Shown: positions 301 through 30,142 of the stretch, piece after piece
Position numbering within the stretch: the stretch's first letter is position 1
How the letters are laid out: each line of letters begins with the position of its first letter
Source: Saccoglossus kowalevskii
Taxonomy: Eukaryota > Hemichordata > Enteropneusta > Harrimaniidae
Length of the DNA: 35,786 bases
Assembly (NCBI RefSeq): GCF_000003605.2
Contig: NW_003145787.1
Location: forward strand, 1-35,786
Direction of reading: 5' to 3'
Position numbers and translations under genes: made by a program
Notes under the pieces: generated by a model
The model's input: only the letters and a program-made list of their open reading frames with translations
Database searches by the model: none
What the model was told of the DNA's origin: nothing

Positions 301-308
301 GTACTACC

Positions 309-1361: not shown

Positions 1362-1975
1362 GACGGCAAACAAAATTGACGAGCTTAATGTGATACTTAC
1401 TGCTGATTGTAAAAAACAAGTCGACTTATTTTTTGTATGTGAAACCTTTCTCAATTCGTCTTACCATGACAATGAGTTTCATATGAATGGTTTCAATTTA
1501 ATTAGGCGGGACCGTCCAGACGGGAGAGGGGGTGGTCTTGTGGCTTTCATCAACTCTGACTTTGTTTTCAGTCATAGACTGGACCTTGAGAACAATTTTC
1601 TTTAAATTATGTTGATTGAATTAACTCCACCCATATATTCGTGGTTCGCAAACTCCGTTCCTTTCCTCAATCAAACAATCATTTTCTATTCGTTATAGAA
1701 ATTTCAAAGTGTTCGCTGAGTCTCTATTTTTGGCTGACTTTCGGAACACGCCTCTAATTTCCGTACTTAACATTACTGATACTAATTTAGCTTTCGAGAC
1801 TTGGCATTCTATTTTTAATAATATTTGTGATTCGCATGCCCCATTCCATTGTAGACATGTGAAAAAATTAAGACTGCCAGGATGGCTGAATACGGACATT
1901 CTACTTAAAATTAGAGAAAGAGACAAATTTCGGAGGCTTGAACGTACTTTGTGTGATGTTACCTAAACCAATATA
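1362..1975 (+). pseudogene. LINE ORF2 remnant: APE-type endonuclease and linker
   Basis: About 1362-1605 reads as the N-terminal half of an apurinic-like endonuclease: KIDELNVIL, then DLFFVCETFLNSS (the E of the ETxL motif is a metal ligand in this family), then IRRDRPDGRGGGLVAFI, which matches the typical R-D-R-x-x-G-R-G-G-G block. Several blocks are then missing. Positions 1709-1966 carry the end of the domain and the linker typical of CR1/Jockey ORF2: FAESLFLADFRNTPL, then CDSHAPFHCRHVKKLRLPGW with the conserved HAP and P-W, then LLKIRERDKF. The host-target nicking domain is therefore present only in pieces. Confidence 0.8.
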
Positions 1976-2039
1976 GAGCCAAACGTAATTTGGTAGTTAA
2001 TTTAATCAAGGCCGCTAAGAAAAAAACATTATATTCAAA

Positions 2040-2922
2040 ATCAATAGCTCCAACAGTGCCGCATTGTGAAAAACCTTTAACGATTTGATCAGTGGTGGTA
2101 AATCTAACTCTTTCGATGATCATATTTCAGTTGGCAATAACTTCGAATTTTTTTTTAATAATTTCAATACACATTTCGCTTCTGTTGCCGACAAGTTACA
2201 ACCCAATGTTTCAGTGGGTGATTCATATTTTACGAATTTAAGGAAATTTATTGAACCCAAATTGACCAATACTCGACAATTTGTTATTCCGCCGGTTATA
2301 TGCCAGTTCGTGAAGAACCAACTGTTTTCACAATCTAGTTCTAAGTCAGCTGGCCTTGAAAATACATCATCTAAACTTTTGCGTATTTCTGCTCCATTCA
2401 TTTGTGAAAGTATTGTTTATTTATTCAACTTCAGCATTTCATCAGGTATTTTTCCAGACATGTTTAAGCATGCCAAAGTTATTCCATTACACAAGGGTGA
2501 ATCCCAGGACTTCATTTATTCAGTCGTTATTGGACTATTGCTGTATGGTATGGGGCAATACAAGTCAATCAATTTTATGTCGGGTGTATAAGCTTCAGAA
2601 AATGGCGGTTCGTGTGATTTCCTCTGATAACTTTAGCCAATCGTCGTTTGAACTGTTCAAAAAACATAGTATCTTGCCTATCGATTACAGAATTTCATAT
2701 TTTCTAGGAATCGTAATGTATATGGCAACCAATGGCTTGGCGCCTTTATATATAAGTGAAATGTTCAGTCCTATCTCCCAAACCCACAAGTATAGTACAC
2801 GTTCCTCTCTTAAAACTAATTTACGCATTACTAAATGGAAAAAATCCATTGGTCAGAGGACCTTTCAGTATAGAGGGGTAACCCTATGGAATAACAAATT
2901 CAGCCTCTTTACGCATTTTTAA
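2040..2922 (+). pseudogene. LINE ORF2 remnant: RT with core deleted, plus C-terminal domain
   Basis: Positions 2085-2508 encode the pre-RT and RT fingers region, ending with FSISSGIFPDMFKHAKVIPL and HKGE, the usual 'G-x-F-P-x-x-W/F-K-x-A-x-V-x-P-L-x-K' block. Directly after this, in another frame, comes the domain that normally lies several hundred residues later: SLLDYCCMVWGNTSQ, YKLQKMAVRVIS, FELFKKHSILPIDYRI, ATNGLAPLYIS, to a stop near 2922. The palm with YADD is absent. The junction is at about 2508-2515. One internal deletion is the simplest reading, because both flanks remain well readable. Confidence 0.85.
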
Positions 2923-3052
2923 GAAAACTTACAAAATTTGTCTTAGTGAAAAATTTGTTGTAAATGGCTCAAGCCTATAGTGTGTATATTGTGTTTTTTG
3001 TCCCTACAGAAGGCCCAATGAAAATTACTTTATTGTGTATTGGCCAACCCTC

Positions 3053-3184
<132 letters not shown>

Positions 3185-3921: not shown

Positions 3922-4088
3922 TTAAAGCGGGGGAGTCGTCACCTGCGCATGCGTCAGATGGCCATAGCGTGTCATTGTTTAAAAACAAGCGTCTACCCAT
4001 GAGTTTTTTTGCGTTTTTAGCGTGTGTTGTTATCGTCGCTTGAGACTCACTTTTCCCGCGTGCGCAGGTAACGACTCTGCCGTTTTAA
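3922..4088. mobile_element. Small TTAA-flanked inverted-repeat element (MITE-like)
   Basis: The 32-bp ends, 3922-3953 and 4057-4088, are inverted copies of each other with about five mismatches. The best-matching core is GAGTCGT-ACCTGCGCA. Each outer end is TTAA, so the element could be flanked by a TTAA target-site duplication, the signature of piggyBac-type insertion. The 167-bp length with no coding capacity fits a MITE. Against a piggyBac origin, the termini do not begin with the usual CCC/CCY. The ends are markedly more GC-rich than the surroundings. A stable hairpin of another origin is the alternative. Confidence 0.5.
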
Positions 4089-4605: not shown

Positions 4606-5736
4606 TAATCTTTATAAACGCAAATCATGAAATTTCCCCTGTAAAATACATTGCCTTCAAATATTGCATTATATCACATAGTATTATTATATTTTGTTTA
4701 CAATGTATATATAAATCACATTTAGATCATCTATCATAAAACAATATCAAGCAGTATTTTAGGCTATCAGCTATCGCAATACTACTTGTTTGTTTGAAGT
4801 TTAATAGCATACACCTCTAGCAATCTGATCTGATGAAGCATATTAATTACTCGGATACGGTTACGTAGATTTCCCTTTTAAATTTTACTCTGTAAGAAGT
4901 AATTACAGGACATCAGCACAAGGGGTCTTAGCTATTTTAGGACAACGATTACCAAATATAATCTACTATACTCTAGTATTCAATATAGTTGTCTTTGAAT
5001 CACATACATGATTTGTTATGACACTTTATAATTCCCAAACTCGCCCTTTTTATAAAACTCTCCAATTGAAATCATTTAGAAATTGGGGGTCGTGTTGTGT
5101 GAGGCGATAATCTACTTTAAACGTGACACTTTCTTGGGTGATCACAGGATTCTGCCTTAACTAATACTAGTGATCTTAGCTCACCTGAATAAAACAACAA
5201 TTTTAACTAATACAATTATATAACGCATGTAATGTAGTTTATAATTGCATTGTGAATGTTTCGGACACAGATACGAGAATATATGTACGATTTAGCAAAA
5301 AGTTGCTTTGCCTCGCACTGGGTAACATAATACAGAAGTACAGTGTATGCTTTATTATTTTCTCATAAATAATTCAATGTGTTTTGCATGAAATTAAAAT
5401 GTACATTCAAAGTGGCACATAACCTTTATTGGAATCTGCTTATATAGGTAGTACAATACCTGTTCACAAGCTATGTTGAGTTACCCGTAACGTTCACAGT
5501 ATGCATACAAATACATCTGTAGCAAATTACACTGTGTATATTATGTATAAGACAGAGGTACATGTCTGGATATACTGAGAGTCAAATATTACGTACACCG
5601 TCTTTGGTAAAATTGTAACCAAGCGAGTTTTTATCATCTATATCGTCAATTTTCAATTTTGTACGATTTGTAGGTCTCTGAGTCCATATAGATGAGCAGA
5701 AACAAATAACTGAGATGTACGCAGCACATTTTATTA

Positions 5737-5774
5737 TGCATGCAACATGCCACGAGTTCGATTCCCTCACCAAT
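5737..5774. promoter_or_regulatory. Best-conserved block of copies A/B1, with pol III B-box-like motif
   Basis: This 38-bp block matches 14004-14041 with about four differences, much better than its flanks. It contains GTTCGATTCCC, close to the tRNA T-loop/B-box consensus GGTTCGANTCC. No A box at the right spacing and no cloverleaf were found, so it is not a tRNA gene. It may be a relic of a tRNA-derived SINE or a constrained regulatory site. On the minus strand it can be read as I-(G/D)-E-G-I-E-x-V-A-x-C-M-H, but the substitutions are not concentrated at third positions. Confidence 0.35.
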
Positions 5775-6384
5775 GACTAATTTTTCTCATTTAATAGGAA
5801 ATACACTCCCCAATTGGCTGATCTGAAGGAATATGGGTGGAGTTATGGGGTTTGACACTAGAAAGAATGTAAACAGTTAGTAAGAATTTGCATGTGTAAA
5901 AGTGCTGATTAGGCTGTAAAGCCAGGACATTTTCAACAAAGGAACCAGACAGTTTCCAACAAAGAAAGTGCCTGCTTTCCAGTAAATCAGACGAAACTAG
6001 TTAATTTTGGCGGGAAGCGTGCGTGAGAATAAAGAATACTTTAAACGGTGTAAACAAGGCATTGCGTGCTATTTCTAAAATCAACGTACTAACAATTGGT
6101 CACACGACCAAAATGATATAAATACACTTTTCTTCATTTCTTTAATATTATAGTTTATTTTTATTCATTATTTATTCATCTCAATATTATATATTATAGC
6201 AAACACGTAAAATATCACTTTGCGTGAAACTAAAAATAAGAGTGATTTGGTCAGTCGTATTTTACAATATATTAAATTGTAATTACGACACTCCATAACA
6301 GCATCATTAAACATCACATTGTAGCACATTAAAGAGTCATTTGCAATTCATGCACACAGATTAACTGATGGTCATTCATGTGAT

Positions 6385-6400
6385 GGCTATATATATAGCC
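6385..6400. repeat. 16-bp perfect palindrome
   Basis: GGCTATATATATAGCC is self-complementary. The matching position in copy B2 (about 15825) does not keep the symmetry, so this is probably incidental. Confidence 0.6.
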
Positions 6401-7288
6401 CTACAATGCTAAAACCGAGTCGATTATTGTAATATATGTCTATGGCTCGCCATAATATAATTTGTTTTGAAGTACATATCTATTTGTCGTGTATCGCATC
6501 TAGCATGTATTTTCAAAAATGATTTAGTGCCTACTAAGTGTAATATTGGAATAATATATTCATACATACATTATTTTTTGGCATAAAATGAAAGACAAAC
6601 ACCAATGAATTGGGTTTACTCGTCTGTCCAGCGTCTTCCGCCGACATCGTCAACAATTCATGTGTTCAGGATGATTTTTTTTTAATTTTTTTCAATCAAT
6701 TTATAATCTTGGTGGAGTTCAATGTTCGAAAATCTGAAACATTTTTTTATTAGAGCTTTTTGAAGGAAATGTGTCTTAAAATGTGTATCAACTTAACAGG
6801 GGCTGTATTTAAATGATATTCAATAGGTGTCACTTAGACAGACCTTGATACCTATCAACTCAAAATATAACTCGATCTCCATGATCGTTCACTGAGTGTG
6901 TTGTACAAATTATTTTCTTCCCCGCTAAAATTTGACAAGTAGATGTGCACCATGCTTTGTTTAGTATAAAATGTTGCTCATCCCTAGCCAATCACAATTT
7001 TAATGTTTTATCAATTCGCTAATTTGTTTTATTTACAGAGATTTTTGATCACAGTATTTTCCGGTAATACATGAGATATATATTCTAATTTTATTTAATT
7101 TCTCATGGATTTAATTTAAAACATTTTATTAAAATTAAAACCTAGTGAATAATCAATGCCTCTTCTACGTATATATTTTATTTAGAATGAAATTAGGCTA
7201 TTCAATGTATTAGGTAGAACATTACTATGAGAAATATTTATGACGCTGAATTAGACAGACAAATTGGCACGAATATGTGAAAATATGC

Positions 7289-7302
7289 ACAAATGCATTT
7301 GT
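7289..7302. repeat. 14-bp perfect palindrome ACAAATGCATTTGT
   Basis: This is a perfect palindrome built of the same half-site (ATGCATTTGT) as the 20-bp palindrome at 8447-8466, arranged the other way round. The half-site resembles but does not equal the POU octamer ATGCAAAT. Confidence 0.6.
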
Positions 7303-7417
7303 ATAGCTATTATGAATGAATAAGAGAGCGGTTACGGCCTTCCTTAAGAACCGATCGAGTTAGAAACCAGCGCCCAGAATTTCTTATTTCCAAAATGCCG
7401 TCTGTATGGCGACGAAT

Positions 7418-7431
7418 TCGCCCTCTTATGG
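7418..7431 (-). promoter_or_regulatory. CTCF-like site, copy A (weak)
   Basis: Read on the minus strand this is CCATAAGAGGGCGA. It fits the metazoan CTCF core CCASYAGRKGGCRS at 11 of 14 positions. The copy B1 site at 14730-14743 fits better. It lies inside a segment (7380-7460) that aligns well with B1. Confidence 0.3.
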
Positions 7432-8446
7432 TCAATCTGGAACCGTCGATTTCCATAATCATAAATGATGTAATTTTAGCAAAACACATACAACATGTAT
7501 AACATACTGTCATGTAACATTTTAATTAACGAGCTATATTAAGACTTGCTATTTAAACTGCTCTTCACGTTTACACTGAACCACACTACTATTCACCCGA
7601 AAGTGAAAGCTAGTCTTTGTTTATTGTGTCACGAGTAACAATCTTCACCAATTGATTATGTGGTTTTATTGTTCAAATCTTTTAATACCGGCCACACTTA
7701 TAAAACGAATTTGGCTGAGTCTATTAATAATAATATTTAAATAATATTTTAAATTCAATGATGAAAAAGCAATTGATGACAGAAAACTCCACCTCAACAC
7801 ATAATTATTTAAGGCATGCTAAAATCAGGGCAAACAAAGCAATGGAGACGAAAATACTACACTATTCTGTAGGCGTGTCTAGCGAGGTGAAAAGAATAAT
7901 CAAAAAACGTGAAAAAAAAAAGAATTTAAGACAGTAGCATGATTCAGAATTTGGAACTGAAAAGATTCTAGTGAATTAGCGAGTACGATGAAATTCAGTG
8001 TTTGGAAGTTGACATTTGATTTTTGCTTCATGAAATAATACAAATAACAATCTACAGTTCATCAAGACTACAGACTATACAGATGTTCAATGTTTGATTA
8101 ATTACATGCTCGTAAATCGCATGCACAGATTGGCGTTACAATTCGACACATATTTCACTTGCCGTACCATATCAGCCACGACATTATCGATTCTATCTGA
8201 TGCACAAAACAAAGACGGTCACAAATGAAAGTGCTTATGTTTGTTTACCTAAGGCCAATAATTTAATTTAATTCGATAGCTTTACTCTTTTTAACATCAT
8301 AATCACCGTGAAATAAAGTACCATTATGTCTGATATTATAATTTTATCAGAGGACTATCACCTTTCCCAGTTAACACTAACGTAGATGGCGCCTTCAATA
8401 AAGCTGTGTCTTTTCTATTAGACTGGGTGTTGTCATCAATAAAAAT

Positions 8447-8466
8447 ATGCATTTGTACAAATGCAT
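8447..8466. repeat. 20-bp perfect palindrome
   Basis: ATGCATTTGT is followed immediately by its exact reverse complement, with no spacer. It lies just after the strongly matching A/B2 segment (8040-8425) but is not kept in B2. Confidence 0.7.
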
Positions 8467-9896
8467 TGGCCCTTCGTAGCAATATATAATGTATTTATCG
8501 TTCGACATTTTTTGTTGTTGAAACCTAGTTGATCACATATAGAAAATATGCTGCAAAAGTGAACTATTATTAACACTATGTATGAATGTTTCGAAATGCG
8601 TTGCTATTGTCACCGTGCACTCATCAACATTTCTCAGAAGATTATCAACTCGCACAATTTTGCTTTAATTCATGGTAAACATGTTGTAACCTTAGTATGT
8701 TTTAACCAAGAGATGGTAGTGTTAATATTGGTCTGGATATTTCTTCAAAACTGTAATGCATTTTATGATGTAATATGATATAACAACGATATATAATTGA
8801 ATTTGATCGCAGTACAGTTCATGCGTGTATATCCAATTAGCGATATGGTCGATGCTGGTGATTGGAATGGCCAGTGACAAATTATGTTGGTATTACTAGA
8901 TAGAGGAGGAATTATGTTTACCCTGTTTACTACTTTACATTAAATGCACGCAGCTGCAGTAGATACCATCATGGAATTTCAGGGGAAAATATTTTACCCT
9001 GTTCATTGTGTTTCAGCACTCACAAATCGCCTGTGCCCCTTGGTGTTATCTGTGCCTAACTCCCTAATTTAACGATTTCGAATGGCCGAAAGAAATCTAG
9101 ATAGATGTTTACAATAATACGTTTGATTTATCTGTGCTGACTTATATTAAACATATTGTACACTATCATTAATCGTGGTTCATATATACCGTTTCAATAG
9201 GGCTTTATGCTTAAATTTATAGAATTCATTTCGTTATGAAGCCTCACTCTTGGCATTGTTCATGGATAAAACGTTATATTTTGAGTGAGTAGTTCTCTGA
9301 TCAGATGTGTTTCCTAATACCACACGTCAGAATTGAATATATACTCCAAGTTACGTGTAATTCATGAACATATAAACCTAACCTAGAATATACCATAATA
9401 ATTAATGTTTTATAGCTTGTTACTAATCTGAGTAATATTTATACACGTTGATCCTTAACAATCTTTTATACTTCAGAACTGACTCCAACAGACTACAAAT
9501 TAATGAAGCTTTATTACTTCTACCCATATATTTAGTAGTTTCTATATGTAAATTAAAATAACTATATGTAATTACAGTTACACAAATCGCAAATAAAGAA
9601 TACAATTTATAGTCAGTATAAATAGGCAGTATGAAAACGTATTCTAATTAACTTCAGACTCTTACCATTCTTATGAAAACGCTGTATTGTTTTTTTACAC
9701 AACTAAACTGGCTACTACTTTTTGATTGTAACAGTTAGAGTAAATGAAATTATCTTGACATAGTTACACCTATAGCGTCAGAATGTAACTGTTTTCACAT
9801 TTTCTAAATATAAAACTGTCTTGGAAAGCGAAATACGGTAAAATCATGTCGTACGCAATATTCGGACATTTTTAGATACACAATCAAACAACCTAC

Positions 9897-10060
9897 CTGG
9901 TAACGTAGGTTCGCAAAGTTCGCAGGAAACCATCGTCGATGCGTATTCTGAACTAGATATATTCAATGAATAAATAATGATAATGTTTTCAAATACTGTG
10001 AGGTTTACGATGAACTTGAAGCAAACAATCATTACTCCTCGCGCTGAGGGTGCATGTGTT
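9897..10060 (-). other. Possible 5' exon with splice donor, copy A (minus)
   Basis: The minus strand has CAG|GTAGGT with the exon ending at 9897. It aligns with a perfect CAG|GTAAGT at 21620 in copy B2. Upstream on the minus strand, TTATATAA lies near 10078, then an ATG at 10032 opening a 62-codon frame across the donor (MIVCFK... to ...TLPG). The conserved 14-mer ATGCGTATTCTGAA at 9939-9952 recurs at 21704-21717. This could be a first exon of a minus-strand transcript, coding or not. No matching acceptor or downstream exon was identified, so it remains a hypothesis. Confidence 0.2.
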
Positions 10061-10572
10061 CGTGTATTTACAGATTATATAAGGTTATAACAATAATGAT
10101 ACGCGTAGGGAGGTCGACCTGTACTGCCGTAAGTGCACTCTTAGCGGTATGCATGTGATATTTTGTAGGATTTTAGAGATAATTCAATGAGATAACAAAC
10201 CCGAAATGGTAAGGAAAATTATAAATTCTATTTCTAATTTAGTAAGCGTATATAGAATGTCAGTCAATATTTAAAACTGAAATCATGCACGATCAATGTA
10301 TGTATGAATCAGTATCATGCGATCTACATTTCTACAAACCAAGCATTTGATTTTGATCACATTTCTTCATTATGTTTCCATCAGAAAAGTAATGTGTTTT
10401 GGTGTGATGTGCTATTATTTTCCGATTCAGTTTTAGATTTTACGAGTGCAATTTTAGTTCAATATCGCTAATAACACTAGTAACGTAAGAATGACATAAA
10501 TTAGTTGTGCAATGGAATTGCTAGAAATTGATAGGTGTATGGGTTGAATGCAAAATGAATACTGAAACATGA

Positions 10573-10574
<2 letters not shown>

Positions 10575-10641
<67 letters not shown>
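10575..10641. repeat. (TA)n microsatellite
   Basis: About 33 uninterrupted TA units, lying within copy A and absent from B2 at the matching place. Confidence 0.95.
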
Positions 10642-10643
<2 letters not shown>

Positions 10644-11480
10644 GAAAAACAAATGCTCCTGAGAACAGTTTCTCATAGCGAATGTAATATTTTTTTCTTT
10701 TTTAACTCAAACCCATGTGCAACAAGAAGGTGACCACATCCAACACTGAAATTAACGGTTTCGCTACATTACATTTGAGAATGTTTGCTCCAAATTATCT
10801 ATATCACTAGTGTCATTCATTTTGGACGTACTATATGTTCAAATGTTTTACTACAATTTTACAGGCAGCTTCTATCAATTTTCGTTTACACCAATTCTAT
10901 CTTTCTCTTATCGATACAGACATGATCGGGAAAATATACATCATTTTGTTTTAAATAATTAAAAATAATTTTATTAAAATTGTTAGATTAGGGGTATATT
11001 CTGTCGAATAAGATATGGTAACCAATTTTCTTGTTCAAGTGGAAAACTGTTGATGAACATATCCTTGCTTCTGTAAGTCTGAAAGAAATTGTTTATCTTT
11101 ATCACTTGAGTAAACCGGTTGTTACTTGCAGCTACGAATAATGCAATGATATATTGCTATCACATGAGTACATTTTTTATAGTCAACATGTTTCGTATAC
11201 TAATCTATTGTTTCTGTTCAGTTCGTTCAGCGTCAATATCAATGAATTGAGAGAATGGAATTAATTTCTTTGACACGTTGATGCTTCTCCGTGAAATTTA
11301 CATACATAATTTACGATAAAGAATACAGGTTACGTCACATGTTAGCTTAGGAATGTACAGTATCAATATATTTATAGTGGGATAAAGTGTGATATGCAAT
11401 CACAGCCTACAGGGAACTACACCTAAGAAATCAGTGTGTAATTTATTTACCCCAGACATAATCTTGTTTTTCGCCATCTT

Positions 11481-12706
11481 TTTTTAAAAATGTGATTAAA
11501 CCTTGTTATCAAGTACATGTCGTATAAGTTCTGCTCGCCACGAGCTAGGAAGCTGGTAGATTTGTTTTACATGATTGTTAAAGTAATATATTTACGCGTC
11601 GTGTGCACAAGTGTACTTTGTTTAGGCAAATATTATTTGAACAAGCTAACGAATTTGAATTTCAATGTAATTTAAACGCATTCACATTTACATTCTCACG
11701 TCTTTTCAACGTTATGAGCTAACGTTGTTTTTTATTATAATTGGCCTGAAGGAAGATTTACGTCCCAATATAATGTTGTATTAATATTGGATGTCATTGA
11801 GATTTTTATATGAAAAAAGAACAACGCTAAACTCATTCCACGTACATATAATTAGAGCTATGGGAGGCGATACTAATCTACAATCGAATACACCGATGAA
11901 GATGTGCATCATCTCATCCATAACAGATCAAATGTTTGGTTCAAATTGAACCCAGTTGGTAACACGCCCGGATTTTTTGTTATGTATTAATCATGGCGTT
12001 ATGCAAATCCATGGAGGAGTTTTATTTCAACAGTGGAATGCAGTCGGAGATAACACCGCTTCCTGTTAAACAACACAATCGGTACTGATGTCATTATTAT
12101 AACCAATAATGGTAAAGGTTCCCAGCATCTGTGTATATATATATATATATTATTATTTCCGTGCACTTCATTAGAGATGTCGCCCACAGGCAAATCGCAT
12201 AAAATACCTTGTGTTATGACTGATTACGGAAGTAGTTAAGTATCAGCACTTTCCCAATATTCCTACCGACATATTTCCTGATCTTGTTTAAATAGTAACC
12301 TCTAGGTCACACAACACATACGTGAATACACTCAACAACGAATTACAAACATATACAAAACTAAAGTAATCAGTCCATACGTTCTATATTAAGATTGGAA
12401 TTGATTGAGCCTCATATATTGATGAATATAGCAACACGATATAATGTCGGATATTTTACTATATTTGTGAAAATTACCTCATGTCAGCATCCATTATTAT
12501 ATATTTTTGTCATATCACCTCAAACCCTGGAATTAGAAGTGTGCATGGAATCACGGTAAGAAACTGTGTGCATTGCCGCGTGTTAACTGTCATAAAGGTG
12601 ATTGACAGGTCATACTTAATTTCAAGTCTGTAAGGACAGTTGGAATGTATCAGGTATGCTGTTATTTCAATAAAAAACATGTTTATGATTTACTGAGTTG
12701 CCTCCG
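11481..12706. other. Gene-free stretch between copy A and the LTR-like block
   Basis: AT-rich DNA in which homology to B2 can no longer be followed by eye. It holds a short TA repeat (12134-12150). No gene, RNA gene or known repeat is recognised. Confidence 0.4.
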
Positions 12707-13285
12707 TGACACAGCTGCTAGCAAAATCACATTCTAATTGGCTCATATGGAAACCCAGGCGGTACGGTGTCCCTGAATCTGGGCCATTTATGCTTATAAA
12801 TTGGACAGTTGGGGTCTATAATTTCTACTGTGTATCCTGTGCGTAGCTACTACAATATTGTGAGACAAGTGATACAGGCTTTATTCATTATTTTGTGAGA
12901 CTTGTATGAACTGCTCTGCGATCTCCTGCTTTCAGTGGTGCCCTCCTAGCGTTTCTTTGCAAGCAAGGCTCCTGTATTTATTCGTTGTTGTGTTGCAGAA
13001 GCCATTGACTGTCATCCATCCTGGAACTGTGACTTATCACCAATGCACACTTCCCTCGGCAATCCACTATTTTTGGTGATTTTATTCATTCTGTGCTTTA
13101 TTTTTTGAAATTATTTTGAGAGGTAATAAAGCCAGAAGTTTTAACTCGATATGTTGGTGTATGTGTATTTCATTTCCAGTACTATTGTCTTGTCTACCCC
13201 ATTCTAGCAGTGACATATTCCCTTGTCCAGTGTGAGTTTTGTGGGTGCCCTCTCATTAGCAATAAGCAGACCTTAAACTGTGACA
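12707..13285 (+). mobile_element. Candidate solo LTR (fossil), about 579 bp
   Basis: The block is more GC-rich than both flanks. It begins TGACACAG and ends CTGTGACA, short terminal inverted repeats with the TG...CA ends of LTRs. Inside are a TATAAA at 12795-12800 and an AATAAA at 13125-13130, in the order expected for promoter and polyadenylation signal read on the + strand. No clear 4-6 bp target duplication is visible, and there is no internal coding sequence or second LTR nearby. If real, it is a single LTR left by recombination, family undetermined, and old enough for its flanks to have diverged. A host promoter or another repeat is the alternative. Confidence 0.35.
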
Positions 13286-14003
13286 CCTACACAATTTTTC
13301 TCATGCAAATATTTCACTTTCCGTCAATAATGTAATAACCTAGCCCACATTTTCTTTGTATATAAACGTTAACCTTGTATGATTCAAATACACGACAAAA
13401 AATAGCAGATTCTCACAATTAACCCTTTGAGAAAAGTTGAATGTCAATTGCTTTCTTGAAAAATTACGCAACTAACCATGCATGCTCAACTACTATTATA
13501 TCTACGTTTCTCTAACAATATAAACAGTCTCTGCATTGAACAATAGGCATAATAGTTACTCGGACTTCTCCGATTAATCTTTTCAATTTTACTCTGTAAA
13601 GAATTTATCATGGGACATCAGCACAATAGTTGTTAACATTTTACTCATTGCACAATTACCATGTGTGAAGTTGCCTGTGGTGATTACAGTAGGCATGCAA
13701 ACATATCTAAAGCGAATTACACTTCCTATATTAACACGGGCGTACGGTTTACAATCTGCATCATGTGCGGATTTATTGATAGTAAAATCGCCTTTTGTAA
13801 GACTCTGAATGTGAGTGCGTTAAGTATGTTTAGTGAGATTTAATTACCTTGTCGTCTTATTTACCACTTTTGTAGGATTTTCCACTAACTCTATTGTGGT
13901 CTCTTTGTCTATATTGTATGTCACGCAATTTGTGTAGATAAATTTAATCAGATAATCAGCTGAGCAGAAGAACAACCCTGATATACTTGCCACATTGTAT
14001 ACA

Positions 14004-14041
14004 TGCATGCAACGTGCCACTTGTTCGATTCCCTCATCAAT
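14004..14041. promoter_or_regulatory. B-box-like conserved block, copy B1
   Basis: Partner of 5737-5774 and about 89 percent identical by eye, including all of GTTCGATTCCCTCA. It contains a pol III B-box-like sequence, but no tRNA fold or A box was found. Confidence 0.35.
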
Positions 14042-14729
14042 AGAAATCACACACCCCAATTTTGCTAATCTGAAAACAAACTTGCTTGGCGTCCCGCGTC
14101 TAGCCACAGTAAAGTCACTGAGTCAATATTATATAGTTTAGTTTTGCTCATTCTATCTCAAGCTGTTTTATCAGAATCCATCATCGAAACTACGTGATGA
14201 CGTCATAACATTTATATGTGCCTTTATAGAGTGTTTCACTATAGTAGTCTGTTATATAATAAAATAATAATATAAAATATATAATGAGAGTAATTGGTTG
14301 GGCAACACCTTTGAGCAGCAATGCTGTTCATTTATACATATCACTTGCACACTCAATGCAACAGACTCACACATTTTCCTTACTTTGAATGCAACCATTA
14401 TTATCAATTAACACAAATACAACTGCAAATAATGTCCTACGAATTCTTGGCCCATTTTTGAGCGTGTCTCGTTGAAAAGTGCGAGTTAAAATGTTTACAG
14501 TTTTTATTTATTTGCAGTTAGTTGTGCCGAGGTACAGCGGATACCATCATTACGAACTAGTTATTTGCAATTCTGTTTCTTCAATGTTCAAATAATATGG
14601 ATTATATTTCGAACATTTTCAACGACATTGGAAATGTTCGTAATTATAGGATTTGGCAAGCAACTTAAATGTAATTGCTGGAATGTCAGGAGATCTTATT
14701 TCTGCAAATTTTTCTACATGGCCAATAAT

Positions 14730-14743
14730 CCGCCCTCTTGTGG
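14730..14743 (-). promoter_or_regulatory. CTCF-like site, copy B1
   Basis: Read on the minus strand, CCACAAGAGGGCGG fits the CTCF core CCASYAGRKGGCRS at 13 of 14 positions. It sits in the 14697-14775 segment shared with copy A and is among the best-kept parts of that segment. Whether it is bound is not known. Confidence 0.4.
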
Positions 14744-15060
14744 TCAGAACGAAAGCGTCGTTATTATTAAGAAAGTATATCTTGAATTAATATTTGTGAT
14801 AGATGACAGTCAATAAATTTAAATTGCTCTTTAAAGCAAACGTATTGTATCAAGCAAGTATCTCTGTTGTTGCAGTTCACTGCTCAGCTACCAGATCGAC
14901 CTGAATGAATGTTTGAGAGCTTAACAAAACTGGTATAGGAAACGTCATACTTCTGCAAAGAAATGGGCTTCAAAATATGTTTATTGCAATCGAACATCAT
15001 CCTATCATCGCGTAAACGTTTAGTGCAACAAAACTACCTCGAGTGTTTCATAAACGTAGA

Positions 15061-15500
15061 TAGCGAGAAAGCTTTTCGTTCTGTGTAGATTCCCGGGGTC
15101 CGACTTGTGAAAATACCCGGAACCCATGTTTGTGAAAGGGGTTTCAAAATAACCCTAAACATGTTTTAAAAGATCAAAATTTCGTACCCTTTTCACTGCT
15201 AGAAAGCTAAAAGATCGCGCACCTTGTAATCGCGCCTAATATCGCGATATTTTAGCTTTCTAACCATTCAGTGTAAGCCCGGGTAGGTCATATGCCTTGA
15301 TCGCCCGCGATCGAGGGTCGTTAACCAGGGGCCGGACATTTTCCTCGTTTTTGCGATCATTGAATTTCTTAAAGCAATACAAAAAACGATAATCTCATTT
15401 AAAAAAATAACCACCCTTATCACATTGGCAGTACCGAAAAAACAACCTTTTTGTCTATTTTGACTGAAATGGTAACTCTAAACGCGTAACGCGCGTTACT
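15061..15500. repeat. GC-rich fold-back region between B1 and B2
   Basis: The arms 15201-15219 and 15243-15261 are inverted copies differing at one of 19 positions, around a 23-nt loop. Looser symmetry extends outward: CACTG and TACCC at about 15186-15199 mirror GGGTA and CAGTG at about 15269-15285. The block holds CCCGGG, GATCGCCCGCGATC and TAACGCGCGTTA, which are CpG-rich in an otherwise AT-rich window. It looks like a fold-back or MITE-like insertion at the join of two duplicate units. No family is recognised. Confidence 0.5.
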
Positions 15501-18439
15501 GTGCTTTTATACGAGCATTGTTTTGGGTCACATGACCACATGTTGTAGAAATACACTTATCATTAGGACAATAGTATATAGTTTCTCTCCAGCTGCTTTT
15601 ATAAGAATCTAGTATAGCAAATACGTGATGACGCCGTAAAATATATCTGTGCCTGACACTAAAAGCGATTTGGCCAGTCATAATTTAGATATTACAAATA
15701 TATTACACTGTGATGACAACGCTGCATAACAACGTCTTTAAACATGATAGCACATTAAGGAGACAGTAGCAATTGCTGAACACAGATTAACTGATCTTAC
15801 CCGATGGCCATTCACTTGATGACTATATACAGAGCCCTACATCGTTAAAACCGAGTCGATTAATGTAATATATTTCTACAATTCACCATTATATAATTGG
15901 TTTTGAAGTACATAGCTATTTTTGAAAGACATGTTCTCATGACAAAGTAACTCAACAATTCGTACATTGTGTGAGATGATGTCATTACCGATAAGAAATT
16001 GAATTTAATATTCATCACAAAATGCCTAACAAATTGAAAAAAAAAAAAAAAAAATATTTTGAATTGACAATGTATTTGAATTTGTAACTAAACGCATAAG
16101 CGCTTTGAAAATAAAATGAGCGATAACAATCCAAGCAATAAATCAGAGTCATTATTTGTGACCGAATTCCAAAGTAAACTTCAAGCGGCGAGAAACAGTG
16201 AAAAGTGATTATAGCAATTCTTAGTTGCTCTCCGGAAACGCGTAATTACTTGTGAACATATTATATATTAGAAAAAAAGATTATCTGTTTTGTAATAGTA
16301 CATAACAACGTTTTGATGCTCACCCTTGCTGACTGAATTTCTCGTGTCTTTTATTTGCACATTTTGTCATTGTGTTCGATTTGAATACGGTGATAATACC
16401 ATATATCAGTGACAGCATTTGTTAAAATTAAGATATGACATTCAGGATGTGATTTCGAAGTAATAGCCATATTGAATTCAAATGTTACTATGAACTATAA
16501 AGTGGCATTATTTATGATGTACATGTAGAAATATACATTGGAGCATTGGGTAATTTGTAATGATATAAAAATGAAAAGCGATAGAACAAATATTTTCGAC
16601 ACGATACAATTATAAGGATCAACATTTTGAATGATTTTTTTTACTTTATATCAACCGAAATGTAGAAAATTCGTAGTTTAGTTAGATTCACACAAACATT
16701 ACCATATATTGTACACGGAAAGTAAAAACGATCCACTTATTGAATATGTATTTTTATTGTTCTCTTCGCATAGTTTTAAAATTGAAAAAAAAATCGGCCA
16801 TACTTATAAAACAAATCTGATTGCGCTTGTTCTTAAATAATTTAATGATGAAAAATGCAATTCAAGACTTTAAACTGAACCTCGACGTACATACACTCAA
16901 TACTCCATATGCAAGATATGGGTAATATATTTGAAAGTTTTGAAACAGATTGAAAAATGCATCAGCATAATTATCTTAAATTACAAGGAAGCGTTACGTC
17001 CAATCTGCTTATTTTTTCCCATGTTAATTTTATTTATTTCTGAATAACTTAAACTTAAAATGTTGTCATGTCATTTAAACATTCAGACACAATAGGGAGC
17101 TGCAAATGGTGACCTACGCATTTTAAAAGTACTATATATGTACAAAGTACAACGCGAAAGTTTCATCAATCTCACATTATATATACTTAGCCATAAGTTT
17201 TACAAAAAACCCTAAAACGACATTTAAGTGCTGACAAATAATATTCTGGCATTTCAAAAAAAAACAAGACTTAATATGTCAATTTGACTTTACGTGAACA
17301 CATTACTTTCTAATTTATAATGTTTATGATGTTGTAAGTGATTTTAATTATTGGAAATGTCGCTGTTCGACCTTAAATAAAGTGTACGTCATTTTACACT
17401 TAAATTGTCTATGTGTGTAAATCATGGTCCTAATAAATGATAGGAAACGAGTCTGTTCTTACTAATAATATATTTACTATGTTATAGGCTAAGCATGGTC
17501 GACATGCATATTTAACAGTATGTCATTTGTTTTTCCAAAAATAGAAAATATCTTGTTGTCTTTAGCTTTTGTGTACTTTTCATTATGTAATGTATTTTTT
17601 TAAACATATGTATAAAACATACTCGATTGTGTTATTCCAAGTCAAGTAATTGTAATAGAGAAAAACTAACCATTGAATGCGTTTGACAAGTTAACATTTA
17701 ATTTTCAGTTCATGAATTAATAACAATTTTCAGCTCATCAAAACAAACAACACATTTTTATCGCTTGATTAATTTCATGCTCATAAGTCCCGTTACGTAT
17801 ATATTGGTGTTACAATTGTAGATGCCATGGCGATGTACATTTTCCTTACTTCATATCAGAAACCACGTCATTGATTCTAAATCATGCATATAATGGGCCA
17901 CACAATAAAGTTATTACGTTTGTTTACCTGTAAATAATTATATTTAATTGTATTTATTTGCCCTCCACAACATAACAATCATCGTGTAAAAAAGTGCCGA
18001 TGTGACTGATCGTTTTATCAGAGGACTTTTACTATTTTCAGATAACATTAACTTGGATGGCGCCTTCTATAAAGACGTGTTTGTATGCGAATCTGGATAT
18101 CGTCCGTACTAAAAATACAATTTTTCACAAAATACTGGTTTTCAAATCCCACATAAATTTGCCTTCATGATCAATATACCCCCAAAATACTATAGTCATT
18201 GATCAAAGTACACCATCATCTGTAGCTGAATCAGAGTGTTGTTGACCGGACAACGCTAAAGCTCAAACAAAGGAAATTTTTATACTAGAGAAGAAATTTA
18301 AAATTGTTTGTTTTTTGGGTCACATATCAATAATATGCTGAGTGTGGATGTTTCGAAACAGTAATCAACGATATAACAGCGATATACATGATTTGATCAT
18401 AGTAAAATCAGAACACATACTAGACTCCTAAACTGAGCA

Positions 18440-20700
18440 TTTGGTATATCTATATCAGCTACGTGATTGACAGCTTTGCGGCCGTACTTTCACGAGCGAA
18501 GCAGAATACACCGCATCTCTAGTGATAATAACTCTCATACGCAACGAAAGCCACGGGGTGGGTGGGGGGTTCTGTTATTGTTACATATGTTCCATATTTG
18601 ATTATTTTGTATTAAAGAACAAAGCGGGGTGGAATTTAGATCTGGTAACCCCATTGCTCATTAATATGTTACAAGATAATATTACGCCCTAGCAATCCAT
18701 GTCAGTGTAGAACGCGTGTCACTGTCTGGGCGAAAATAAAATAATCAGACGTCTAATCTGAGTCACTGTCCTCATAAATAACCGGTGAACGTTTAGGCGG
18801 GGCCACGACAGAACCAGAACTTGAACTGGTCGACTATGATACACATTTTATGTTGAAGTTAAAAGTTCCGCCACAGAATTGTGCATTGGCAAACATGCCG
18901 TGCAACTGCGTTACTTCACTGCTGATATTGCTTGCTGGTCGTCGATTGAATGAGTCTTGGTTACCGGTTAAAATGTTGCTCGTTTGGCGTTGGTATTTAT
19001 TTGGAACTGAGTAACGCCGTAACGTCGCCAGCAGAAATCGTTGATTTTACTGCCGGTGGATTTTCCGAGAGCTCTTCAGTGTTCACAAAACACAGTTTCC
19101 AGGTGGTCAATATACATTAAGTTCTCCCAATCGTAGTATTCCATGTGATATACCCTAATATGCCAAACATTTTGCTGAACGATTTGAACCGCATAAAAAT
19201 AGCAGACGAATATGTGTAAAAATAGTTCGATTTCCAATGGAAATACCATATTGATTGCATATCAATCGTGAAAATACTGAAAACATTATTGCATAGGTGA
19301 TATGAAAATTAGTTTTAGTTAAAATAAGTGACTGTCTAAAAGTACCATTACTGTTGTTCAAATTTCATTTCACTCGGCAAGTATATTCATGTACCCCAAG
19401 AGAAAAATATCGTATTTCTAAATAATGTTTATTTTTTTTATGTTAACGGTACTCCTGAAGGGACTACTTTGTTTGCTCTCAGATCTCAATTGCACATGGG
19501 GTGTGGAAATACCGATTATGATTTTAGGGACGAATCAAAATACTGCAGTACATATGTAATGAATAAAAAAAAACAAAAAAAAAAAACATTATAAAAAACA
19601 TTTTACTTACTAGACAAAGCTGTTACTAACAGAAAAACTGTCAAACTGTGTACAAATAGATTAGGATGTTTATAACTATTCAAAACACACGCGCAACTAT
19701 TCATGTGATCGCAAAAGTATTAAAATGTATGTATTGTGTGCCACAACACTTGTGCCTGAACTCATCCAAGTGATTGGAGTTTGTAGCCTTTTTTTAAAAT
19801 AGCTTAATTCCGTGAAAATACTTACATGCAATAACTACTAAAATTTCCTGCAATGTTACGAGCCAGATCACCTACGGCTGTGTCAAATTACTTGCTTGAC
19901 TCTCTGAAACATTTCGGTTAAGATGCAATAAACATAACCAACAGTGGACATATAATTTCTTTTTACATAGACAACGGAAAATGTGTTTGGTTCGTATATG
20001 CCTGAACACTAGTGAACATAAACATCTAGTTACAAATCATGTCATAAAATGTGTTTTTACCAATATGATTGCCATTATAATTCGTTAATGTTAGAAATGT
20101 CCATCTGATTATCCAATAACACGGGTCATAATAATTGAATCTATTTGTCTAGTATGTTACATTAGATTTTTAGACACGCACATTTAATGAACTCGGGTCT
20201 TCAGTATCTTCACGTCTGGCTTTGGTACTTCTGGGAAATAATTTTTATTTGTTGGTAATAGTAAAACAGATTAACGAAATATATCTCAACTCTAGTTTGT
20301 GTGTCTGTATCAGCCAGCCACAACAATAAAGTAATGTGTTTAATGAGCACTTACTAATACTACTAATGGTATCGACATTAGTAGAATTAATTGTCCCTTT
20401 CATCATGAAAGCCTTATTTATAGACTAAATGCTAATGGAATTTCTTTAAAGGTTTATTGTGTTGGCATCATAAACTATTTTAGTACGTCTGGTAGCAATG
20501 TATATTTCAGTCTTGACAGAACGCATACACTTTTTGAAATACACATACCATTGCCAATGTATATAAAGTAAGCTCCATGTAATATAACATTGAAAAGAAC
20601 TAATGTTAAAATACACGTGGAGGTCAATTAGCTAATAAAACAATTGAATATGATAGTAAAATAAGTGCATTAATAAATTTAACACAATGCCCATAACTTT
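18440..20700. other. Extra DNA in B2, absent from copy A
   Basis: Copy A has no counterpart for this interval. The part at about 18440-19110 is clearly GC-richer than B2 around it and carries the recombinase-like remnant on the minus strand. The rest, 19110-20700, is AT-rich with no recognised feature. An insertion of one or more mobile elements after the duplication is the simplest reading; loss from A is the alternative. Confidence 0.45.
18753..19046 (-). pseudogene. Decayed C-terminal frame resembling a Crypton-type tyrosine recombinase
   Basis: A 98-codon minus-strand frame reads, in part, RRYSVPNKYQRQTSNIL, then MFANAQFCGGTFNFNI, and ends APPKRSPVIYEDSDSD before TAG. One in-frame TAG (18834-18836) splits it. 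The first segment recalls the region around the catalytic Tyr of Crypton/DUF3504-type recombinases (S-x-x-x-Y-x-x-x-S/P...R-x-x-x-S-N-x-L). The 'F-x-G-G-T-F-N-x-N-I' strand and an acidic Asp-Ser tail are, as I recall, common at the C-termini of such proteins in marine invertebrates. The catalytic R-K-H-R part is not visible upstream, where the frame is broken by 19049. The family call is from memory and tentative, but the coding character itself looks real. Confidence 0.4.
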
Positions 20701-21619
20701 GAAATATTTACGGCAATGTGTCAAGTATATATATGATTCTCATAATTCTCGAGAATAAAGAATTCACAATGAGCAATTCTACGTGGGAGTAGTGCATTAA
20801 ATCATTTCATTTCAGAATTCTGACATTAACATTCCTCTACTAGTATTCGGGCAGCAATACAACACGTGGCGAACATCTGTTATACACACAAATGAAATTA
20901 AAAAAAAGAAATTGCTAAGCTGAATTGCATTGATACATACTACTACGATGTAGAAGCAGCTTAAGGACCATGCACTGGTCGGTGATGAAATTAGCACCTC
21001 GTTTTTGTCTGAGTAAAGACTTTTTGGCGATACAGAAAATCCTTAATTTGAAAGCTAAAATGCTGTCAAGATCACTCCCACTCAGATATATCATGGTCAA
21101 AGCTGAAGTCAAGATGTGTTCACGCTACTCAAGAATAACCAATGTCTATTTTAAGAGTGAGTAAAATATACTTCAACTGTTATCATCGTAAGTGATGTCA
21201 ATACGCTTGTTTATCCTTTTTAAATAAAAATGCTAATCACCTCTATACAGTTTTCAACTGAAATGCAACATATCGTGCTACTACATCGTTTTGCTTACAC
21301 AATGCAATTAATTAACAATGAAACTAATTAATTCATTCTTTTTTCCTCTCTTATATAATATATATTCGCTATATTGGGTTTTGTATACATCACTAAATGA
21401 ACTACTACTTTCCTGTAGTAACGATTGAAGTTAAAGTAAATTGGATTATCCTGAAGTATTGTCAAATATAGCATCAGAATGTCACTATATAAATATTGTC
21501 ATCTAAATATAACAATTTCTTAGGAAAAGAGATACGATAAAATCGTTTAACATTCTAAATGTATTTTGTAATTGTGCAATGTATTGTAATTTTGTAATCA
21601 AACATTTAAACATACTTAC

Positions 21620-21760
21620 CTGATGACTTGGATCTGTCATGAAACCATTAGCGTTATTCACTGTACGATCTTATGTTAAATCATGTAGGCTCCTTTCGCG
21701 GAAATGCGTATTCTGAATGAGCAACCAATAACAATATATTAAAATACCGAGCTTACCTGA
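21620..21760 (-). other. Two minus-strand splice-donor-like sites in copy B2
   Basis: CAG|GTAAGT (exon end 21620) and CAG|GTAAGC (exon end 21757) are both near-ideal U1 targets. The first aligns with CAG|GTAGGT at 9897 in copy A. A small frame, ATG ACA GAT CCA AGT CAT CAG, leads into the first donor. No acceptor or downstream exon could be tied to them. Confidence 0.25.
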
Positions 21761-23100
21761 TGCATTTTTATATATAAAATTACGCCATGTGCTCAATCAC
21801 AACACAAGTTAACACGAGTATAGTTTAAATGAGAATAGACTATCGAATTGTGTGTGGATGGGGCTTAACTGCGAATATTGCATCACATAAAAAACGAACA
21901 TTTTGTTGAATAAGTGTATTTGAGACAACTTACGACATTTTGATAATTCGTTAATGTTTTTCGGCTTGTAATTGCATTTTAATGCATTTGAAACAGTCTC
22001 GAAATGCAGATTTTGGTTGCGAAAATTACATTTCATTTCATTTAAAAGATGTCAGGATATTCATATCCATGTTTGGCAGAGTAAATTAAATTATTCACCA
22101 AAATTTGTAATGTGCCATTATGTATTGGGCGAACTCGAAACAGCTTTAACATTTGAGACATGGAAAACACAGATAGAATCTTTTTCTGAAATTCTCATAG
22201 GAATATACAATTAGTTTCATCCAAATGTTGGCAAGGTAACTTGCGAGGGGAGGCGCGGCGATGAAGTACAATAATACGTAATCGAGGTCAAAATATAAAG
22301 AAATAGAAATTTTAAAAAGCACTATGGAAACTATCCCTTTGTGCCGAACAGAGTCACCACAGAAGGAATCATTTTCACAGCTTTTCTCGTTCTCGTTTAG
22401 AGATGCGCAGAACCAAAGTGACGAGCTCAATAAAAATGCCGCGTTTTCCCATTAGAATGGCGCACATTGTTATTGTGACCATAGTCTTCACTCCGACACC
22501 AACGTTTTTGGCAGATATCAACAATCTATGCGTTTGCTAATCACAGTTTCACTCCATTTGACAGAGAATGATGATATTCGTTTAGTACATTGATATTGCA
22601 TAATAATATATTATATTTAATATGGAGCTGGATACTAAGGTTTGTACACCGGTAACAATACGTTTGTACATGCTCACATGTTACTCCAACATGAGGATAA
22701 TTGCAATTGCCTGGAACAGCTGGGACTGGTTCAATTCTAAAACAGCGAAACAGATTTTTCCAGCTTGAACAAAACACAACCTTCAGTTTATTTTGACTGT
22801 ATATATAATAGTCTACCTTGACGTGAACCGCTTCCCTGTAAAAATCGATCTGTACGCAACACAAACCTGGTCAGATTACGTCACATAATGTAAGCCACTA
22901 TAGGCTTAGTGCCCAGTAACAATATATACGATAAGGGATAAAGTTTGATATACAACTTCGTACAATGTGTAAGTACTAATAACGCGTTTAAATCTATGGA
23001 GACCAAATCTGAACAAATCATATTAACCTCTGTACCCCGGTCGAAATATTCTTTTGTCAGCTACAGTCTACAGAGATTTGACTCAATCTGATACGTATGT

Positions 23101-26040
23101 CATTATATAATACCCGGTAATAGGAATCCTACGAATGCATGTTATTCACGTTAATTGTAATCTATAATATTCATTGGAACGTATACCCTTTACTGTAAAC
23201 AGCGTGATTTTTCTTGTGGAATTTTATATTTTATTCATGTAGAACCCATTTAATAAATCGATTATAAGTGAGCTGGAATGTTAGTATGTTTGAAAAATGA
23301 CAATGTGTCATTCAGTGCAACCTAAATTGATGTAGACTGTCAAATATAACTTATGTGTGTATTATATAAACTAATCGTTACATTGATAATAATATATTAA
23401 TATTAATTTATTAATGATACTGTTAAAATGACATTGCTTAAAATATGGTTTAACATGATTATGTGAATATAATAATAAATATAGGTTTTGAACCCAACTA
23501 AGGTTAGTATGCATCAGTAAAAAGATACATAGTTTGGATAAGGTTGTAAAGTGCACAAATGTATTGTTCTTGTCGTAAAACCCTCTTGACGCAGTGAAGG
23601 AATATATATCGGTTTACCATACTTTTATTAACAAACGTGACTAAATTACACTAACTCACACAATATCATTCTCAAAAAAACGAGTCAGACATATTTTTGC
23701 TTGTGGAGGACCTCACTGACAGTGAGTTCGCAAATACGAATGTTGTTCAATATTCATAATTGAACGTTAACGTTTATACATTGGTAATTAGAGGATTACA
23801 TTCAAGTTATATGAAGTAACTAATAATATACATACTAAGTCATCAATTGGAGAAGGAGAGACTAATTGTGAAAGTTTCTTTTTTACATCAAAAATAATAA
23901 TACAGCTATTGTTCTTATTCAAACATTTTACATTACTAAGGTAACTGAAGCTATGTAATGAATATTGTGCATGTTTCCGTATGTTTGGTAAACACGACTA
24001 TCATTATGAAATAAGGCTCTATATTTTTTAGCATGACATTTCATTTATTTGGGACACATGATAATACACACATCTTATTGTCCTGTCAACGGATTGGAGA
24101 GATATACGAGAATAATACAAATGCTTCGGCGGCATGCTTCTTATTGACGCTACCCCAAGAGACTAGCACAACAGTGATAAATGATGCAGTTCTCGGTGAC
24201 AGTTAAACAATGTTGCGATCTGATTCATTCATATCATCGCGAAAGGTTGGAAAAAATGAACCTATTACTTATATCCATATAAGTAGACTATCACTGTGGC
24301 ATGTGTAATTTGATATCAGTGCGTGATGGAATGAAACTATATAATACAGTGACAGGTTGCCATGAATAACGATTATATTTTTCTGGAGGCAATGATTCTG
24401 TCACTAATCCCATATAACGACTGCAATAAAGTTTTTCGAATTAAAAGTATAACCACGTACTCTCCGTGAGGTTTTTCCAAGAATTCACGGTCTGGAATTC
24501 CACCCACCATACATTTTATTTGAGTACACACTTAGGGTGCACTCCATTGGCCTCAGTGAGTAATATTAAACTGGCTACGATGCTATGCGATTATTCATGT
24601 TCTATTAAAGGGAATTATTCAGTCTTGCCTAGGAATTTCGTCAGTATAATAACAATCCTAAATATTTTAGCCAAAAAATAATCACCTCAAATTACAAGAT
24701 GTGAAATCTATATAGATCGCATTCATCGTTATCTTGGATCATTAAATTACGTATTTGCTTCTATGGACATGGAATCATATTGCACTACACAACTACCTAC
24801 CTTCTCCCAGCCAACCATCGGTATATAATATTTGACACTCTCTCTTGCAACAAGTTGCGCAGGCAAAATTAGCTGTCTAATAAATAACCTCTGATAATAT
24901 ATATAGGTCATGTGATATGTTATACGCTGTACATGATAAATAACGTCTTGTACTGAACTACAAGCCGACATGCGAAAAACAATCAAACGGGCGTTTATCT
25001 TTTCAAAATTACTCGTGATAAAAGAGCTCAGACTACAAAAGCACCTTAACGCGAGAGGCAATCTTTTTTGAAAGCGTAGTAAGTGTACATGAAAAATATA
25101 TTTTCTGGAGGTATGAATGCATATTGCTGAAAACTTAAATAGGGCAAATGTCGTGGTTTGTCTTGCTTTGTTATATTACTTTTAATTGACACTGCTCTCT
25201 TATTACTTGGGTGACATCAATATTATGAGATTATTTTTTTAAAAATCGAAAAACCTGTCGGTTTATTTGGCTTAGCCTCAATGACATAATAGTTATGTAA
25301 CGGTGGTACTGAGATATACGTAACTGAAATATAGTTACGTCTGTCACCCATATTCACATACATGTAAGATTAGTATGCATGTCATGTACATGCGACATCG
25401 ATACATTAAGAATAATATATTCGCGCATACAAAATCACACCTGCTTCATTCAGTTTTGGTGCTCGCTGGACTGTTTTTTTATTTTTTAGTCATTCCCAAC
25501 TACTACTTACTAGAATGTACAAAATTGGGAACTCGAAACAATTGACTGACAAATAATAAGTTACTCCAAAATAATTTATACAAGTAACACAGTCCTAATG
25601 GACAGGTTAGAATAATTACAACAGCAGAACTTTTTTTTGTATTTTATGACTTTACATTGGGCAATCTTATACATACGTATCAATGTTTACATTCCAGAGT
25701 TTTATAAAAGTTAAATTTCTATATATTTGTTTTCAGTTTGCCTTTTTCCAATTATGTTACAAAATGTGTTTTTTGGCGTTGTGGCATTTTGTTGTTTGTA
25801 TTTGCAATAAATAACTCACATTGGTATACTCGCTTTATATAAAGGAGCAAAACCTTAAAGTTGGGTTTCAGGTCATTTATTTTACAGTTTTGACCAGTGT
25901 TTCTTACATCTGGTGTGACAAAGGCCCATATAACCTTGTTATCTATTTTAAATTATTGTACTTAACAAAAACAAATGTTTTACCGAGTTCCCCTGTGATG
26001 GCGCATTCCAAAACATGTGGGTTTCCCAGTGATGACCCTT
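23101..26040. other. Gene-free stretch
   Basis: AT-rich DNA with no recognised gene, RNA gene or repeat. It holds a small perfect inverted repeat (ACTTATAT-CC-ATATAAGT, near 24267-24284). Short open frames here, such as 24747-25061 on the minus strand, lack any family resemblance. Confidence 0.45.
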
Positions 26041-26346
26041 AACCCCACTTGCCATCTTTTGTGTGTTTCTAGGTGAGTGATTTTTGTCATCCTTATCATG
26101 TTTTATCAAAATAGTAATCCTTTACATCCCACTTGTTGAAATACTGTATAAGGTGATAATGTGTTTCTTCTCCTTGTTGACATGTATTTTTTGGAAGTTT
26201 ATGATTATTCTATTTTGAGATAAAAAAAATTGTGATCGGCCCATTGCTATGTACAGGTTGCCATGTTGCAAATACCTTTTCTTGTTTTGATATGAATGAC
26301 ATGTATTTTAGAAACCACACCTGCCATATTTTGTGTGTTTCTAAGG
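26041..26346. repeat. Pair of diverged direct repeats, about 31-35 bp
   Basis: 26041-26074 and 26312-26346 share AAcC-CACxTGCCAT-TTTTGTGTGTTTCTA at about 90 percent. GACATGTATTTT also occurs in front of the second copy and about 140 bp before it. The unit may belong to a dispersed repeat or to the 3' part of the adjacent LINE fragment (minus strand). The family is unknown. Confidence 0.45.
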
Positions 26347-26498
26347 GCTCGAAGGAGAAATAAAGCAGCAACGTAGAGTCGGTTCATCAATCCGCAATTG
26401 CAATTTCTGGTTTGTTATTGTATTTTCATCTATGAACACCTAGAATTATATACAACGCAAATCTCCAACTGTATATTCACATTCATATAAATGGGTGT

Positions 26499-30130: not shown

Positions 30131-30142
30131 AACTTAGTTCTA
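30131..30142 (-). other. Splice acceptor just before the GPCR start codon
   Basis: On the minus strand, TTCTCTTTTAG ends at 30140. It is followed by nine bases of 5' UTR (AACTAAGTT) and then the ATG at 30130. The pyrimidine tract plus AG is a strong 3' splice site. The coding sequence thus lies in one exon, with at least one non-coding exon upstream, as is common in invertebrate GPCR genes. Confidence 0.7.

Follow-up and report, generated by a model that had tools for sequence, protein, structure and literature searches.

Tandem segmental duplications that carry duplicated pseudogenes have neighbouring copies in direct orientation, a gene fragment disabled by frameshifts or stop codons, and a related intact gene nearby. 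A locus of the hemichordate Saccoglossus kowalevskii displays the same three properties, but differs in that it is strongly eroded, with about a quarter of one copy still alignable to the other, and in that the relic is found in one copy only. Rhodopsin-family receptor arrays with decayed members are a second kind of system that the locus resembles. Here an intact gene similar to those of the NPFF and galanin receptors is accompanied, approximately 6.5 kb away, by a decayed relative in the same orientation, although there is a single intact member within the DNA analysed. At the level of noncoding sequence, the locus is also similar to the duplicated conserved noncoding elements of vertebrate paralogues, as these are outlined in PMC1896008, in that paralogous noncoding islands show partly complementary retention. 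In that outline the vertebrate elements are recognized by being conserved across distant species, whereas the islands described here come from the comparison of the two copies, A and B, alone, and show neutral-like substitution.

Organization of the duplicated block

The DNA analysed, referred to as the window, is 35,786 nucleotides in length (contig NW_003145787.1 of assembly GCF_000003605.2, forward strand). It contains a tandem, diverged duplication in direct orientation. Copy A extends from 4838 to 11399, these being the outer limits of its anchors, and copy B from 13547 to 22955. Copy B consists of two parts: B1 (13547–14760) is the partner of A 4838–5774 and A 7375–7448, and B2 (15526–22955) is the partner of A 6098–6485 and A 7622–11399. 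A dust-filtered self-comparison recovers the chain of same-orientation anchors between A, B1 and B2 that the initial annotation had described. There are nine anchors, all on the plus strand and with scores of 39.7–215 bits, and with the filter on they are not low-complexity matches. Copy A was shuffled 20 times with dinucleotides preserved to provide a null; the best shuffled match is 35.4 bits, with none of the 20 shuffles reaching 38 bits, and on the opposite strand A and B share nothing above 34.0 bits. The two neighbours are similar over kilobases, collinearly, in the same orientation and outside low-complexity sequence, as is expected of a tandem segmental duplication.

The anchors mark nine islands of similarity, termed a1–a9. 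Four are shared with B1 and five with B2, and their order is collinear inside each part. Those shared with B1 are a1 (4838–4939 in A and 13547–13643 in B1; 61.1 bits), a2 (5474–5543 and 13664–13733; 48.3 bits), a3 (5690–5774 and 13958–14041; 62.5 bits) and a5 (7375–7448 and 14687–14760; 39.7 bits, with 53 of 72 columns identical). Those shared with B2 are a4 (6098–6485 and 15526–15921; 215 bits, 80.1% identity over 366 aligned columns), a6 (7622–7803 and 16707–16893; 46.8 bits), a7 (8000–8461 and 17681–18131; 205 bits, 75.2% over 435 aligned columns), a8 (9644–9845 and 21324–21544; 94.0 bits, 75.6% over 201 aligned columns) and a9 (11326–11399 and 22872–22955; 41.1 bits). In A the islands add up to 1639 of 6562 bases, and in B to 1664 of 9409. 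Taken anchor by anchor, the offset between A and B2 is 9.4, 9.1, 9.7, 11.7 and 11.5 kb, which is much like the growth from about 9.4 to 11.7 kb reported initially.

Copy B also has an internal repeat on the plus strand, at 14156–14223 in B1 and 15586–15654 in B2, with 79.7% identity over 69 columns (E = 2e-9). The sequence of this repeat suggests a local re-duplication of approximately 1.4 kb. Copy B may be the product of such a re-duplication, or it may represent two copies with largely complementary losses. No third copy is seen beyond B, in 23300–35786; apart from a receptor match of 39.7 bits, nothing there matches A or B with more than 32.6 bits.

Another proposal for the origin of the block is that A and B are both insertions of a single long non-autonomous transposable element, or that they share a series of transposons in identical order. 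The island ends appear abrupt by eye and there is other mobile debris in the window (LINE-like, 1–3184), both of which would fit a transposon. This origin is nevertheless very unlikely. Nine anchors are ordered within B1 and B2 over 6.6–9.4 kb, and no terminal inverted repeats are found among the 25 longest of the 98 inverted pairs of A and the 84 of B, those of A being mostly a TA run. The lack of a further copy in the window beyond B also argues against a transposon, as does a Pfam search in which the 88 scanned frames of the block reveal no transposon domain.

Intervals between the islands

Seven pairs of internal intervals were aligned globally, with 60 shuffles each, and have z values of 4.3, 0.1, 0.3, −1.3, 2.0, 0.4 and 2.0, where the sixth pair is a sub-interval of the fifth; one further pair, too short, was skipped. 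Six of the seven have z ≤ 2.0 although each side holds at least 196 bases, and where z is 2.0 the score is reached by 1 shuffle in one case and 2 in the other, out of 60. Outside the block, the flanking sequences have z values of −0.8 and 0.7. With the TA run partly masked, local alignment shows weak similarity in three of the seven internal pairs (score reached in 0, 1 and 3 of 100 shuffles) and no residual similarity in the other four (12, 52, 98 and 76 of 100) or in the two outer pairs (67 and 77 of 100).

When neutral homologous DNA of 1100 bases is simulated with 0.12 substitutions per site in each copy, z averages 66.8 and does not fall below 40.0. The mean is 17.1 at 0.3 substitutions and 2.6 at 0.45, where the signal is nearly gone, and at 0.6 the signal is gone. 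When the real z values are placed beside the simulated ones, the longer intervals would be either non-homologous or at least two to three times faster in their change than the islands; the simulation represents 1100-base intervals, and power is lower for shorter ones. Tandem segmental duplications are also expected to align without breaks except at recognizable insertions, and the two copies do not. This can be put down to age, and it weakens the label of recent segmental duplication, not that of duplication as such.

If the intervals are homologous, a rate at least two to three times that of the islands is what constraint on the islands predicts. A neutral account, on the other hand, needs turnover in nearly every interval and in both copies, and the loss of almost all interval sequence asks much of it. 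By the figure of about 884 My given for mammals, the required turnover is not universal. Perhaps, then, the islands are paralogous conserved noncoding elements (enhancers, insulators or other cis-elements) that were copied together with a receptor gene and then maintained by selection, whereas the intervening DNA and the receptor copy itself drifted until nothing was left. Intervals mostly near chance, as against the strong signal of simulated neutral DNA, point in this direction, and the largely complementary sets of islands in B1 and B2 look like subfunctionalization. Selective retention of this kind is rather unlikely, as the divergence of the islands themselves argues against it.

Divergence of the islands

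Identity in eight islands is 77.9% over 1486 aligned columns, with a range of 72.9–84.9%. An earlier estimate of about 70% is amended by this value; with gaps counted, identity per anchor is 61.8–76.7%. Across the eight islands (a5 left out) identity is homogeneous (chi-square 7.55, 7 d.f., p = 0.37). Uniform divergence is expected of one duplication event, and the homogeneity agrees with a single age. It also argues against elements kept by selection.

Within islands, mismatches are not clustered. The clustering test took in a4, a6, a7 and a8, four of the nine islands, and the right part of a4 was also taken separately; in none does clustering rise above that of the uniform-rate simulations fitted to it (P = 0.107–0.998). 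P values are 0.64–0.82 for the longest identical run, 0.51–0.71 for the run statistic, 0.15–0.80 for window variance and 0.11–1.00 for the best window. Fitted substitution is 0.11–0.14 per site per copy and fitted indels 0.015–0.03, with lower values of 0.08 and 0.005, respectively, in the right part of a4. With a 460-base island, the test has a power of 71, 76, 93 and 100% against four models of blockwise constraint, a detection being called when either of two measures is beyond its own 95% point (5% each). Blockwise clustering of conserved positions, a signature of conserved noncoding elements, is thus not seen in the four of nine islands, by a test that usually detects such constraint. The islands look like neutral chance survivors of one event. 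Between the moderate age and the constraint on some parts that the initial annotation had offered as alternatives, homogeneous identity and unclustered mismatches favour moderate age, while the unalignable intervals leave room for constraint.

At the motif level, a CTCF consensus has 21 matches in the window with up to three mismatches, against 13.2 expected, and 3 of 100 shuffles reach this number. The best CTCF-like word is at 14730–14743, in the B1 partner of a5, and is the only one of the 21 with fewer than two mismatches. The A partner of this word also matches, with three mismatches. The CTCF core has its only exact match of the window in a7, and the B2 partner has one mismatch; in total there are six matches against 2.6 expected, a number reached by 5 of 100 shuffles. 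The locations of these words in a5 and a7 would suit conserved elements, but the motifs were sought after the islands had been seen and the excess is modest. The CTCF-like matches are therefore a post hoc lead and may provide a weak hint. A CREB-type site was rejected, as its matches are at chance level (15 against 13.2 expected).

It is unlikely that the islands represent insulators or cis-regulatory elements that have outlived the receptor copy, have become partitioned between the copies and perhaps regulate the intact receptor gene 6–25 kb away. If the islands do prove to be constrained, the locus would represent a case of control elements surviving their own gene copy.

Coding and RNA signatures

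Six of the nine islands (a1, a4 and a6–a9), including all that are longer than 100 bases, have no frame open through both copies. The short islands a2, a3 and a5 (70, 85 and 74 bases) have some frame that is open in both copies, which carries little weight at 23–28 codons. The view that the block holds no conserved reading frame thus stands for six islands. Indels are not multiples of three in 49 of 64 cases across the nine islands, and translated similarity of a4 is scattered over frames and strands. On these properties, together with the closed frames, coding islands were rejected. The block has 90 stop-to-stop frames of at least 50 codons; 88 of them were compared with Pfam, and no family matches with an E value below 0.035.

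At the RNA level, short similar stretches alternating with unalignable intervals look like exons and introns, and the islands could stem from the tandem duplication of structured RNAs or of the exons of a gene for a long noncoding RNA. Such a role is most improbable. Ten strands from three islands (a3, a4 and a7) fold within the range of shuffles (z = −0.59 to 0.97), and the entire window has no match to an Rfam family at the gathering threshold, so that neither search supports structured RNAs. A tRNA search of the window found none. B-box-like words at 5755 and 14022 are the only matches in the window with one mismatch, and a tRNA-derived element in a3 was considered; it gained no support, as there are 12 window matches with up to two mismatches against 10.97 expected.

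The receptor gene and a related relic

The only long clean gene found in the window encodes a rhodopsin-family receptor (29060–30130, minus strand). It is a single open frame of 356 amino acids and lies outside the duplication. Pfam assigns it to 7tm_1 (E = 1.2e-38), and among solved structures neuropeptide FF receptor 2 is the best match (1.2e-29), with galanin receptor 1 at 2.2e-27. It has no match to phage records. By eye, an acceptor-like splice sequence precedes the start codon and a donor-like site is present at about 34.2 kb on the minus strand (region 30130–34260). These sequences suggest that the gene may have a distant 5′ untranslated exon.

A receptor-related fragment is found in B2, at 22610–22087 on the minus strand. 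It aligns to residues 169–351 of the intact receptor, with frameshifts and stop codons. The frameshift-tolerant score is 110, which none of 100 local shuffles reaches (maximum 62); the maximum in 20 shuffles of 18.8 kb is 73, and the tblastn E value is 1e-4. A reversed-protein control scores 72 at the same place, so composition contributes but is not everything, and the relic claim is carried by the test at the DNA level. In that test, over residues 241–327, the alignment score is 41 and is reached by none of 200 shuffles (maximum 25). In the DNA alignment, 15 of 18 indels are off multiples of three, and mismatches at codon positions 1, 2 and 3 number 24, 20 and 26, which leaves little codon-position signal. 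Similarity to the intact gene is thus accompanied by disabling changes and, judged by its sequence, the fragment is a pseudogene and a distant relative of the intact receptor. The block had initially been described as without a recognizable gene, and the relic contradicts this. The Pfam receptor family has no match in the scanned single frames, including those over the relic, and there is no trace of the first half of the receptor in the upstream zone of B2 at 22600–23500 (score reached in 70 of 100 shuffles).

The counterpart of the relic in copy A, 9846–11325, is not significant, with its score reached in 21 of 100 shuffles. For A 11200–11500 against the receptor, the protein score is reached in 1 of 100 shuffles and the DNA score in 66 of 200. 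Since the relic is detectable in B2 and not significant in A, the receptor half of the account given below rests on B2. Two other candidates are not claimed as relics. A possible second trace at 16464–16646 (B2, minus strand) has a protein score of 64 (0 of 100 local shuffles), a DNA score of 26 (0 of 200) and a blastn E value of 0.02, but shuffles of 18.8 kb reach 73 and the reversed-protein control scores 63 nearby. Traces at both copies of a9 are suggestive by eye; at the DNA level their scores are reached in 66 and 178 of 200 shuffles.

Proposed history of the locus

The duplication itself, its pattern of islands, the receptor relic and substitution statistics of a neutral kind are observed. 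The locus is probably an old tandem segmental duplication beside a neuropeptide-type receptor gene, which has since been broken up by insertions and deletions and has drifted largely without constraint. A block of at least 6.6 kb would have been copied in direct orientation, perhaps by unequal exchange or by a replication-based mechanism. Copy B would then have been changed by the re-duplication of about 1.4 kb, unless it represents the two copies with largely complementary losses. At least one unit may have carried a related receptor gene, now the pseudogene fragment in B2, which presumes that the duplicated unit included the gene. The surviving islands would bear the marks of point changes and small indels, and most of the DNA between them would have been replaced through larger insertions and deletions, so that replacement, and not fast drift, would have erased the intervals. 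The initial statement that no feature type explains the block is too strong, as most of it can be explained by an old segmental duplication that includes a receptor pseudogene. If the locus is ordinary in this sense, it clearly illustrates how a tandem duplication decays over time, leaving uniformly diverged islands that could be mistaken for constraint.

Other features of the window

Five stretches of the window have a GC content of 32–40% and CpG at 0.87–1.04 of expectation. Taken with the receptor gene and the retrotransposon debris, this composition resembles that of nuclear DNA from an invertebrate. The LINE-like debris at 1–3184 has a zinc-knuckle frame at 1032–1361 (Pfam zf-CCHC, E = 6.6e-6) and further frames that look endonuclease- or reverse transcriptase-like by eye, three of which were given to Pfam and have no match. 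The debris ends in a perfect (TAAA)33 run at 3053–3184. An inverted repeat at 3922–4088 spans 167 bases and has 32-column arms that are 84% identical; it looks MITE-type, and with an E value of 0.075 it is possibly due to chance. The gap between B1 and B2 has an inverted repeat of 20 bases at 15200–15262, with arms 95% complementary and 23 bases between them. A direct repeat, 26041–26071 and 26313–26343, is 90% identical, and its two units are 272 bases apart.
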